From positions 1 to 25,611 of IMG/VR virus record IMGVR_UViG_3300027963_000309: a stretch of DNA of 25,611 bases. One strand, written 5' to 3'. Source of the stretch: a virus. Below, in pieces: positions 130 to 3,751 of this stretch. Numbering within the stretch: the first letter of the stretch is position 1; each line of letters opens with the position of its first letter. The notes beneath the pieces were generated by a model. That model had not been told where the DNA came from. It saw only the letters and a program-made list of their open reading frames with translations, and ran no database searches. The position numbers and the translations under genes are program-made.

Positions 130-165
130 AAAAAAACGGGGGAAGGGATTGGAACCCCGCCCCCG
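130..165 (-). terminator. Rho-independent terminator of the early-type operon
   Basis: On the minus strand a GC-rich stem (arms 155-165 and 137-147) has six perfect outer C-G/G-C pairs, one mismatch, then a G-U and three G-C pairs. It closes a 7-nt loop and is followed directly by seven Ts (130-136). It lies 22 nt past the stop codon of the 96-aa gene and fits the end of the unit that starts at 2594. Confidence 0.85.
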
Positions 166-186
166 CTTGTTGCATCTGATTAGGGT

Positions 187-477
187 TTACCCCCCGCAAC
201 CGCACCCGCAGAAGCCAACATTCTCCAAAGCAACCGCACATTTTTTGTTTTCACATACGGCCACATGATCGGCTTTAGGTTGCATCATTCGATGAACCGC
301 AGTTGACGGGACATAGTGGAAAGACCATTTTGCATCTTCACCACATACCGCACACACCCCAGTACCAGAATTGAGACCCCGTTTTTTAATCGGGCGAGTA
401 TCCCGCAAATCTGGCTCCCAAGGGTTAGAAGCAAACCGCCAACCCCATTTATCAATTCTTGTTTTTTTGTATTTCAT
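187..477 (-). CDS. Zinc-ribbon-like small protein with CGCGCGG C-terminus
   Basis: This 96-aa protein has no family I recognise. Visible are a basic, Trp-rich N-terminus (WGWRF, NPWEP), a CAVCG knuckle near residues 42-46, two histidines (54 and 62), and a second pair CENKKC near 75-80, which together could bind one zinc. The tail FCGCGCGG is striking: alternating Cys-Gly ending in Gly-Gly, which could be another metal site or a processed or conjugated end. A good Shine-Dalgarno (GGGGAGA) precedes the ATG inside the end of the upstream 52-aa gene. It is the last gene before the terminator at 130-165, so it belongs to the amidoligase operon. Confidence 0.75.
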   Translation of the reverse strand: MKYKKTRIDKWGWRFASNPWEPDLRDTRPIKKRGLNSGTGVCAVCGEDAKWSFHYVPSTAVHRMMQPKADHVAVCENKKCAVALENVGFCGCGCGG

Positions 478-479
478 GT

Positions 480-638
480 TTAATTCTCCCCAGCCCAGAC
501 CGCTTCAAAGCACGGCTGGCAAGATATGTAGGACATTCTTAATGCCTCATCTTTTTCCGCTATGTTCGGGAAACGGCGAGTACCTTCAGCTTTTTTGCAA
601 GTTTCGCAGATTCCTGCTTGTTGTTTTTTGTCGTCCAT
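480..638 (-). CDS. Tiny zinc-ribbon protein (52 aa)
   Basis: The 52-aa reading frame starts at 638 with a clear AGGAG Shine-Dalgarno 10 nt upstream and ends 2 nt before the next ATG. The protein begins MDDKKQQAGICETCKKAEGT and carries two CxxC knuckles, CETC (residues 11-14) and CQPC (40-43), spaced as in a small treble-clef or zinc-ribbon fold. There is no signal peptide or membrane segment. A role in binding DNA, RNA or a protein partner is typical of such phage miniproteins, but none can be assigned. It is co-directional and nearly gapless with the neighbouring Cys-rich gene. Confidence 0.7.
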   Translation of the reverse strand: MDDKKQQAGICETCKKAEGTRRFPNIAEKDEALRMSYISCQPCFEAVWAGEN

Positions 639-656
639 TTGTGTTTTCTCCTTTTT

Positions 657-761
657 TTATTTGTTGTTGTTTTTAATATAGCTGACCAGCCCTAGAAAGA
701 GCCATCCCAGCACAATTAAAACTTTGACCCCTGCCCATAGGTCGTTCTGATTTTGTTGCAT
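657..761 (-). CDS. 34-aa single-pass membrane peptide
   Basis: The stop of the amidotransferase gene and this ATG share one base (TAATG), so translation is probably coupled. The peptide has a polar N-terminus (MQQNQNDLW), one hydrophobic segment around residues 11-29 (VKVLIVLGWLFLGLVSYI) and a polar Asn/Lys tail, as expected of a one-pass inner-membrane peptide. A purine-rich AAGGGG lies upstream. A second peptide of the same size and plan stands at the head of the operon (2493-2594), so two membrane peptides bracket the two enzymes. Function unknown. Confidence 0.6.
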   Translation of the reverse strand: MQQNQNDLWAGVKVLIVLGWLFLGLVSYIKNNNK

Positions 762-1486
762 TATTCCCAAGCCCCTTCTGTATTGTGAAAGGATTGCTGT
801 TCCCATTTCTTAATAGAATCAGCTTCTATTAGCCTTTCTACGGCATCGTCATCGTCAATCGGGACAACGCCCCCAGAGGACGGAATGATTTGTACGGGCG
901 AGCGTCCGTAGTAAGAGGGTGGGCAAGTGTAGGAACCAGTTTTCCACCAATCGTTTGAGTTTTTGTAGGAGCTGTTAGAGTACCAAACTCCCCCAGACCA
1001 ATGCCCCGCCGTTTCATTTATGATGATGAATTTCCCAGTATAATTGAGAAAACATAGCTTAGACCCCTTAGCATACTCGTGAAGCATTTCGACAAGTGCG
1101 GGAGTGATCGCCCCCGTGTCCCGTACTAGTGGTTGCATCACTTTTTGATTGAAGTGCCAAGTGTCTGAGCGTGTTGGCTTGTCGGCGGTGGAGATGGGAA
1201 GGCATCCATTGTGAATGAAAGCCATTCCCTTACTCACTCGGAACGGGTGGCAGTTTTCCAAGTCTGTCGCCCCGTGCGTAGTGATACGGGCGTGAATGAT
1301 AGCGGTGCATTTCTCCAGCGTCATCACCTTGTCAATCCATTCGCCAGCCTTCATCGTCTTAAAGGTGCGTAGGCGTTTACCATCTGTCCACGCTATGCCG
1401 AACCCGTCTGGATTACTTTCGGCTGAATTTTCAAGGTGCTTACGGCTGATTCTTGCGTTCTTAGTTTTTACGATTGCTATGCACAT
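761..1486 (-). CDS. Class II glutamine amidotransferase (Ntn hydrolase)
   Basis: This 241-aa protein matches the class II glutamine amidotransferase fold, which releases ammonia from glutamine. Cys2 directly follows the initiator Met and would become the N-terminal nucleophile. Other family motifs are NPDGFG (25-30), HARITTHG (65-72, with the glutamine-binding Arg67), CHPF (79-82) and the oxyanion-hole motif HNGCLP (92-97), followed by SDT (107-109). The core ends near residue 170; the C-terminal 70 residues are rich in Ser, Tyr and Trp and unfamiliar. No synthase domain is fused, so the ammonia acceptor must be a partner, and the amidoligase 32 nt upstream is the obvious one. Cytoplasmic. 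The upstream region is A-rich with only a weak Shine-Dalgarno. Confidence 0.85.
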   Translation of the reverse strand: MCIAIVKTKNARISRKHLENSAESNPDGFGIAWTDGKRLRTFKTMKAGEWIDKVMTLEKCTAIIHARITTHGATDLENCHPFRVSKGMAFIHNGCLPISTADKPTRSDTWHFNQKVMQPLVRDTGAITPALVEMLHEYAKGSKLCFLNYTGKFIIINETAGHWSGGVWYSNSSYKNSNDWWKTGSYTCPPSYYGRSPVQIIPSSGGVVPIDDDDAVERLIEADSIKKWEQQSFHNTEGAWE

Positions 1487-1518
1487 AATGTTTTTTTCTT
1501 TCTTGGTTGGTTGTTTAC

Positions 1519-2484
1519 TTACTCTTCTGAGCCTTCTTCATTCATTCCGCTTGCGGTGTTGTCGGGATAGAATTTCCGCTTGCGAGCCATAAACCACTCT
1601 TTCGCCTCCCGTGGGATTTCGTTGCAATTCATCATAGCGTCAATCGTGGGAAGTGTGTTCCTGCTCGCACCTACGCAAAGGGAAACCCAATGCTTAATCT
1701 TGTCGGCTGAAGTTGTCCCGTTTAATAGGCGTACTTCAATCGTCCCGTGTTCGGCATAGGCTTTCCAGTTGATTGCCATATAGCGGTCATAGTTTTCGGG
1801 ATTCTCCCCTGCCACATTTAAACGGCAGTAACTATTCCCAATTCTAGAGGGAGGTACGGCAAGTTTGAGCCAAGGGAGAGCAGAAACAAGGCGATGGTAT
1901 CTCCTCCAAGCGGTTGCACGGCTGACATTCCGCTGATCAAGGTGAAGGTGCAAACCGCAGGATTTATTTACCTGTGCTTGTGATAGTGATAGTTTTTCGC
2001 AGAATGTTTCTAGGCGATTCTCTGAGACTCCACGGACATAAACCACGTTAGCCTCTAGGCCGATGAAACCGCTAGGAGGACAAATAGAGCCATCACTAGT
2101 AAGGGCGATAAACTTGCTAGTGCGTATGGTCGAAGAATTGACTTGTCTTGGTAGTAAAAACTCCAATTCAACTCCTACGAACTCACCCCGATGGCTCTGA
2201 ATGTTTAGCAGGTCACGGATACCCAGCTCCCGTTGCATCACGGGAAGGAGTGGGCGGTGTGTCTTTCTCTTCTCCTGCATAGCAGACCAGAGCCACACGG
2301 CAGAGCGTTGAAAGTTGCCTAGTTGTTTTACGGGAACGCCCGCAGGGAAGTCCGTAGTATCTAGGCGGGATTGCCTAGCCATAAATTTGAGTTTACGGCC
2401 TATGGTCATTTTAGTTGGAGTATCAAAGGAGGACATATCCAAGCCTCCCCAGCGTAGTGCTTTTTTGTATAGTGTGTTTTTCAT
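1519..2484 (-). CDS. Amidoligase_2-family enzyme (glutamine-synthetase-like fold)
   Basis: This 321-aa protein carries the hallmarks of the phage and bacterial amidoligase family (Pfam Amidoligase_2), a COOH-NH2 ligase clade with the glutamine synthetase fold. They are GVELEF (104-109, metal-binding glutamates), DGS (131-133) followed by GLEANV, the GLHLHLD strand (177-183), an Arg/Asn-rich stretch (214-240) and HGTIEVRLLNGT (246-257). The family is predicted to use ATP to join an amine or ammonia to a carboxylate, probably on a peptide or protein. Pairing with a class II amidotransferase (next gene) was noted for such systems in comparative genomics. Residues 1-100 are not obviously part of the core. 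A start at Met17 (2436) has a much better Shine-Dalgarno (GGGGAGG, 7 nt away) than the one given. Confidence 0.85.
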   Translation of the reverse strand: MKNTLYKKALRWGGLDMSSFDTPTKMTIGRKLKFMARQSRLDTTDFPAGVPVKQLGNFQRSAVWLWSAMQEKRKTHRPLLPVMQRELGIRDLLNIQSHRGEFVGVELEFLLPRQVNSSTIRTSKFIALTSDGSICPPSGFIGLEANVVYVRGVSENRLETFCEKLSLSQAQVNKSCGLHLHLDQRNVSRATAWRRYHRLVSALPWLKLAVPPSRIGNSYCRLNVAGENPENYDRYMAINWKAYAEHGTIEVRLLNGTTSADKIKHWVSLCVGASRNTLPTIDAMMNCNEIPREAKEWFMARKRKFYPDNTASGMNEEGSEE

Positions 2485-2492
2485 TTGTGTTT

Positions 2493-2594
2493 TTATTTCT
2501 TTCTATTTGTTAGGACGTAAACCGCACCCCAGAAGAATCCTGCCACACAGCAGAGAATCCCGAAGGAGAGGAGCGTCCAGATTTCGTTTTGCAT
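2493..2594 (-). CDS. 33-aa single-pass membrane peptide, leaderless start
   Basis: A 33-aa frame ends 8 nt before the amidoligase ATG. It encodes a short polar start (MQNEIW), one hydrophobic segment with two cysteines (about residues 7-28, LLSFGILCCVAGFFWGAVYVL) and a basic TNRKK tail, predicting an inner-membrane peptide with its C-terminus in the cytoplasm. There is no Shine-Dalgarno. Instead the -10 box of a good promoter lies 6 nt upstream, so the transcript would begin at or next to this ATG. It heads the amidoligase operon and resembles in design the 34-aa peptide at 657-761. Confidence 0.55.
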   Translation of the reverse strand: MQNEIWTLLSFGILCCVAGFFWGAVYVLTNRKK

Positions 2595-2600
2595 AAGGTG

Positions 2601-2629
2601 AAGATACTGGAGAGCGTGAAGAGTGTCAA
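2601..2629 (-). promoter_or_regulatory. Sigma70-type promoter of the amidoligase operon
   Basis: The minus strand reads TTGACA (2624-2629, perfect -35), a 17-nt spacer, then TATCTT (2601-2606, 4/6 to the -10 consensus). The expected start point, about 7 nt further on, is at 2594, the A of the first ATG of the operon. This is the best host-polymerase promoter in the window and fits an early gene block transcribed before any phage polymerase is made. Confidence 0.7.
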
Positions 2630-3029: not shown

Positions 3030-3048
3030 GTTGCATCAATCGTGCAAC
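3030..3048. promoter_or_regulatory. Dyad GTTGCA-N7-TGCAAC, operator-like
   Basis: A perfect 6-bp inverted repeat with a 7-nt spacer lies in the gene-free region, preceded by seven Ts. Its left half is an instance of GTTGCATC, an octamer unusually frequent and strand-biased in this window. It could be a dimeric repressor site or a small hairpin. Confidence 0.35.
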
Positions 3049-3478: not shown

Positions 3479-3751
3479 ATGAAAACACTATTATTAATCT
3501 TAACTTTCCTAACCGCAACCCTACAGGCTGAAGATAACTGGTCTGAGTTCTTAGGTGTGTCCCATCAGTCCAGAGGCACAACTACAATCGTCAACAACAC
3601 AGCCTTTACCAGCACAGGTGTAGTGACTAAAGTTCGTGATTCTTATTTCGGTGCTGGTGGAATCACCATTAAGCAGGGCGACAGCTACTACGGGCCTAAA
3701 ACCTATACAACCAAGGTAGGTAATGACTACTTTAGTAGTGGCTCTAGGTAG
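3479..3751 (+). CDS. Small secreted protein of four 14-residue repeats
   Basis: This 90-aa protein has a clear Sec signal peptide: Lys2, hydrophobic LLLILTFLTATL and a likely signal peptidase I site after LQA (residue 17). The mature 73 residues contain four repeats with an exact 14-residue period, counted on the aromatic pairs (TAF, SYF, SYY, DYF). Each repeat is roughly T-x-[KI]-[VQ]-x-[DN]-[ST]-[YF]-[FY] followed by Gly and Thr. Such short Gly/Thr/aromatic repeats suggest a beta-rich periplasmic or surface protein. I do not recognise the family. It is one of only two plus-strand genes, has its own promoter, and could act on the host envelope, for example in superinfection exclusion. That role is inferred from its address and position only. 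Confidence 0.65.
   Translation: MKTLLLILTFLTATLQAEDNWSEFLGVSHQSRGTTTIVNNTAFTSTGVVTKVRDSYFGAGGITIKQGDSYYGPKTYTTKVGNDYFSSGSR

Follow-up and report, generated by a model that had tools for sequence, protein, structure and literature searches.

The virus record IMGVR_UViG_3300027963_000309 of IMG/VR, analysed here over its whole length of 25,611 bp and called the window, carries at its low end, on the minus strand, an operon coding for an amidoligase, a class II glutamine amidotransferase (GATase) and four small proteins. Phage ligase/GATase pairs were already described by Iyer et al. 2009 and Hardies et al. 2013, as represented in the citing papers PMC5498523, PMC6256558 and PMC3890496. What is new here is an invariant four-gene form, located beside an integrase gene, in which two membrane micropeptides accompany the enzymes. 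This might be a membrane-held ligase/GATase operon of a temperate T7-like phage that amidates a carboxylate of the envelope and keeps competing phages out, a reading to which we assign a probability of about 0.4.

The six genes lie on the same strand and every reading frame is open, as a first-pass annotation of the window had stated; almost all that this annotation observed holds. Read in the direction of transcription, they code for a 33-residue single-pass membrane peptide with a positive carboxyl terminus (MQNEIWTLLSFGILCCVAGFFWGAVYVLTNRKK, 2493..2594), the ligase (1519..2484), the GATase (761..1486), a 34-residue single-pass membrane peptide (MQQNQNDLWAGVKVLIVLGWLFLGLVSYIKNNNK, 657..761), a 52-residue CxxC...CxxC miniprotein (480..638) and a 96-residue Cys-rich protein whose end is CGCGCGG (187..477). 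Purifying selection acts on five of them (dN/dS 0.05-0.14), the gene of the 96-residue protein being outside the measurement.

The ligase belongs to Amidoligase_2 (PF12224) of the glutamine-synthetase superfamily, with 58.7 bits against a curated Pfam cut-off of 22, and PHROGs concur (phrog_2443, 'amidoligase enzyme', 9e-17). It features a helical amino-terminal domain (residues 1-72) and a catalytic core (residues ~100-305). G104, E106, E108, D131, H179, R214, E250 and R252 are invariant in 72 ligase/GATase pairs, and the metal-ligand residues are kept throughout the alignment. A structure model built with 40 homologues in the alignment has a mean pLDDT of 81.5. It supersedes a weak first model from a mixed alignment (pLDDT 66.5), which had matched viral (phage) amidoligases at E-values down to 2e-16. 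The top PDB folds for the later model are YbdK and glutamine synthetases; the E-values, 2e-3 to 1.5e-2, are modest. Model and alignment point to a glutamine-synthetase-type fold with acidic and His active-site residues, for which the predicted chemistry is ATP-dependent formation of an amide bond.

The GATase matches GATase_4 (PF13230) with 32.5 bits, above the curated cut-off of 23, so that the profile search bears out the identities first proposed for both enzymes. The motifs quoted in support of them are present and their residues are conserved in distant relatives. C2, R67, H80, N93, G94 and D108 of the GATase are invariant in 72/72 pairs. Its sequence has the features of a class II enzyme (Ntn hydrolase): an amino-terminal Cys nucleophile (Cys2), Gln-binding Arg and Asp residues and an oxyanion Asn-Gly. 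Its best PHROG is of unassigned function, and matches to glutamine amidotransferase PHROGs are weak. The NCBIfam matches include the EgtC model, with GlmS scoring higher. The GATase may supply ammonia to the ligase; EgtC-like hydrolysis, found in the same family, is likewise possible. A carboxyl-terminal tail FHxTEG is common to the GATases of the clade described below and of the uncultured phage locus L128 (4814-5626), whose ligase is ~41% identical. The ligase may make contact with the GATase at this tail.

The two enzymes go together far beyond this operon. Searches seeded with the GATase gave 79 IMG/VR loci, 78 of them assessable (in L035 the ligase is absent only through the contig end). 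In 78/78 a same-strand amidoligase lies directly upstream and ends between -200 and +150 nt relative to the GATase start; among control open reading frames (ORFs) the count is 0/197. In 80 loci seeded with the window's own ligase subfamily a GATase is present in 63 and immediately downstream in 54, against 2/204 control ORFs. The adjacency anticipated for homologues is thus found from both sides. Distances between ligases correlate with those between GATases (Mantel r 0.89, reached in 0/5000 permutations), a correlation to which shared phylogeny contributes. Adjacent genes for the two enzymes are also found in the named phages MEP401/402, Salgado and Ottawa, in the uncultured podovirus MW202733 and in Marvin, whose ligase match is slightly under the Pfam cut-off. 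By these matches the pair is near-universal among IMG/VR loci of these enzymes and widespread in phages.

The lineage-specific form was defined in a clade of the window and seven close relatives (L002-L008), with ligases 73-95% identical. The order 33-residue peptide, ligase, GATase, 34-residue peptide is constant in its eight full members, with dN/dS values of ~0.14, 0.10, 0.06 and ~0.09, respectively. The start codon of the second membrane peptide, corrected to position 761, overlaps the GATase stop as TAATG (ATGA in some relatives), and the longer ORF that begins at 806 is spurious. The two Cys-rich genes have a distribution that marks them as exchangeable accessory extras. The 52-residue protein gene (dN/dS ~0.05) occurs in the window, L003, L004 and L005 only. 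The place of the 96-residue protein gene is taken by other Cys-rich genes in L002, L003 and L004; an unrelated gene of 89-90 codons is found downstream in L005 and L007, and no such gene in L006 and L008. Both enzymes are intact in L006, L007 and L008, which have no Cys-rich gene. The small proteins had been proposed to form one set with the enzymes. This holds for the two membrane peptides but not for the Cys-rich proteins, which come and go, and instead of six genes in one constant unit there are four invariant and two accessory ones.

Neither Cys-rich protein has a family match in Pfam or PHROGs, nor has the 52-residue one in NCBIfam. The different downstream Cys-rich proteins of the window, L002, L003 and L004 end in -GG (CGCGCGG, CGCGG, GVCxIGG). 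In the GATase-seeded set most ligases have CxxC ribbons ahead of the core. The window's ligase subfamily is mostly ribbonless, and a reading of the Cys proteins as detached ribbons is therefore unconvincing. The possibility that the 52-residue protein replaces the ribbons fused to other ligases, as a split zinc ribbon, was downgraded for this reason and is also weakened by the three clade members that lack Cys-rich genes.

The operon lies between a probable promoter and a terminator. A sigma-70-type promoter, TTGACA-17-TATCTT, had been placed at 2601..2629. Its -35 box and 17-nt spacing are conserved in 7/8 clade members, but the -10 box is variable and a blind scan of the region found 8 such sites where 8.4 are expected by chance. 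Because the scan shows no excess, support for the promoter comes from conservation. Its -10 box ends only 6 nt before the first ATG and, if the promoter is right, the first message would therefore be leaderless. The terminator is supported as a hairpin at about 134..168 with a T run after it (to 130) and a folding energy of -26.7 kcal/mol and z = -3.2. It persists in the relatives with G-U changes, and was overlooked by a simple terminator scan because its stem is interrupted. In L003, L007 and L008 the 7-nt loop of the hairpin resembles a tRNA T-loop (TTCRANT), the sole such motif in the searched loci. ARAGORN found no tRNA and Rfam gave no match. An attP site at the hairpin was considered and dropped, the drift of the loop in the other members fitting a plain hairpin.

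The window has a T7-type terminase gene and a long minus-strand run of structural genes, among which portal, capsid and tail genes were assigned by inspection and gene order. Since the record stops 130 nt beyond the operon terminator, the downstream context was taken from the relatives. There the terminator is followed by a stretch of TTACCYGTGCGTT repeats, a 63-residue protein gene, a tyrosine integrase gene (PF00589, 99 bits; in 7 relatives) and a T7-type RNA polymerase gene; the window ends before the integrase. The first-pass annotation had placed the operon in the host-takeover slot of T7-like phages, and these neighbours make a lysogeny or moron setting likelier. With an integrase and a T7-type RNA polymerase next to the operon in the relatives, the phage is probably T7-like and temperate and the operon moron-like. 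In base composition the operon stands at 47.3% against 41.7% for the genome, yet the capsid gene reaches 49.5% and the terminase gene 46.6%. The TTACCYGTGCGTT sequence forms three direct repeats at 12431-12521 of L002, found also in L003 and L005-L008, upstream of the 63-residue protein and integrase genes; they may be arm-type sites of the integrase or repressor sites.

Genome scans with the ligase and the integrase found no integrated copy. The ligase had no match in 84,980 genomes. The integrase scan gave distant relatives only, the best-scoring (39% identity) in a SAR324 metagenome-assembled genome (MAG), which is insufficient to name the host. In this MAG (L114, 8642-11122) the integrase is accompanied by a sequence with 25% identity to the RNA polymerase, and a tRNA-Ser follows right after, a region that is possibly a T7-like prophage.

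In the proposed mechanism the GATase would split glutamine and pass the ammonia to the ligase. The latter would activate a carboxyl group with ATP and amidate it, so that the carboxylate of a small molecule or peptide would end up as an amide. The two single-pass micropeptides would hold the enzyme complex at the inner membrane, where the most likely substrate would be an envelope precursor, for example a carboxylate of the peptidoglycan stem peptide. The most likely benefit would be that the lysogen or the infected cell shuts out competing phages, with the operon expressed in lysogeny in the former case. We are more doubtful of the stronger version, in which the micropeptides are dedicated docking subunits and the four genes a prophage-expressed exclusion module that makes a new amide modification of envelope precursors.

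Several observations weigh against amidation at the membrane. Pairs outside this lineage mostly come without membrane peptides, a small transmembrane ORF being nearby in 7-8/40; membrane location is therefore not general to the chemistry, and transmembrane peptides as a general feature of ligase/GATase pairs were rejected. Peptidoglycan is only the favoured substrate. Such pairs have been predicted in phages since 2009 and are abundant in uncultured ones, and no pair with a demonstrated substrate was found in the literature searched. The nearest solved fold of the ligase, YbdK, is a carboxylate-amine ligase of gamma-glutamyl-cysteine type, and free-standing GATase-II domains like EgtC hydrolyse gamma-glutamyl amides and donate no ammonia (PMC9103826).

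The last two points lead to the strongest, if somewhat unlikely, alternative, in which the pair adds and trims in the manner of EgtA and EgtC. The ligase would couple an amine to glutamate or a different amino acid and the GATase-like protein would be a gamma-glutamyl hydrolase. No ammonia would be transferred, and the pair would make or unmask a small metabolite or peptide tag. EgtA/EgtC is such a combination of a ligase and a GATase-II hydrolase in ergothioneine synthesis (PMC9103826), YbdK is the top PDB fold match, the EgtC model is among the NCBIfam matches and phage C75C1 has a fusion of the GATase domain with a gamma-glutamyl cyclotransferase, a link to gamma-glutamyl bonds. However, the YbdK match has an E-value of just 2e-3 and GlmS outscores EgtC. 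The glutamine-binding residues are compatible with either role, and sequence cannot separate this alternative from amidation of an envelope carboxylate.

It is improbable that the operon serves host takeover or counter-defence by protein modification. The ligase would then amidate or tag a host protein, or else one among the small proteins of the operon itself, namely the Cys-rich ones, some with a -GG end. Ligases of the glutamine-synthetase fold such as PafA do conjugate proteins, and both the GG ends of three different downstream Cys-rich proteins and the CxxC ribbons fused to the ligases of most distant GATases would suit such a role. Yet the absence of Cys-rich genes from L006, L007 and L008 shows that these proteins are not obligate substrates, and a search of defence families gave no match for the operon.

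A role in auxiliary metabolism of nitrogen or amino acids, in which the pair would recycle glutamine nitrogen for phage growth, is very unlikely. It was proposed for a chronic planctomycete phage with amidoligase, GATase, glutathione synthase and cyclotransferase genes (PMC10945688), though on growth effects of the whole phage. The pair studied here is, moreover, flanked by membrane peptides, with a terminator and a probable promoter of its own. Hypermodification of phage DNA, with an amide or amino-acid adduct on nucleobases, is scarcely credible: some DNA-modification pathways do include GATase and ligase enzymes, but no base-modification gene was apparent by inspection of the L002 ORFs from the operon to the polymerase gene, where no systematic search was made.

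Amidation of an envelope carboxylate finds its closest parallel in the peptidoglycan-modification cassettes of phages phiEco32, RIO-1, PSA-HP1, LUZ24/tf/UFV-P2 and phiM6, named in PMC5498523, PMC6256558 and PMC3890496, a connection that the first-pass annotation had not drawn. A 2009 prediction had the pair modifying the surface of the host cell (Iyer, as related by the same papers), and the larger cassettes are hypothesised to change peptidoglycan and block superinfection (PMC5498523, PMC10580990, PMC6256558). These cassettes and the window operon share an Amidoligase_2 protein and a class II GATase among early-region genes, with the same proposed chemistry. In contrast to them, the operon has no adjoining ATP-grasp ligase or gamma-glutamyl cyclotransferase, none being found by phmmer within ~5 kb on either side in clade members, and two membrane micropeptides are present instead. 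None of its genes matches the COOH-NH2 ligase type (PF14395).

The Methylophilales phages MEP401/MEP402 (PMC10580990) and MW202733 resemble the window in having the GATase directly after the ligase. The MEP GATases are ~35-40% identical, and MW202733, also a podovirus, combines integrase, enzyme pair and RNA polymerase in one region. They differ by ligases of ~520-550 residues with amino-terminal CxxC ribbons and by the absence of a conserved flanking micropeptide pair. The closest ligase subfamily, ribbonless and with the GATase as next gene, is that of Arthrobacter phages Salgado (98/99) and Ottawa (65/66) and of the uncultured L128; ligase identity to the window subfamily is 41-43% for L128 and ~27% for Salgado. 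These have no micropeptides and represent other phage types and hosts. YbdK and EgtA with EgtC share with the window the ligase fold, the GATase family and the two-enzyme logic, but sequence identity is ~10% and theirs is a cellular pathway. MurT-GatD also carries out ATP-dependent cell-wall amidation with glutamine nitrogen, using a Mur-ligase fold and a class I GATase of unrelated sequence. The lineage described here is a minimal version of the system, two enzymes and two micropeptides with their own probable transcription signals, small enough for whole transfer to a laboratory strain, which makes the product of such pairs testable.

The opposite-strand neighbour of the operon (3479-3751, plus strand) codes for a 90-residue protein with an apparent signal peptide. 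It is conserved in 8/8 relatives checked, including the fragment L009, with 44-96% identity, and is possibly another exported phage-host gene. The 9-mer TGATGCAAC occurs on the minus strand at 3038, 2240, 1140 and 287, four copies within 3.2 kb around the operon, with one further copy elsewhere on the minus strand of the window and zero on its plus strand. The same 9-mer is found again around the operon in relatives.

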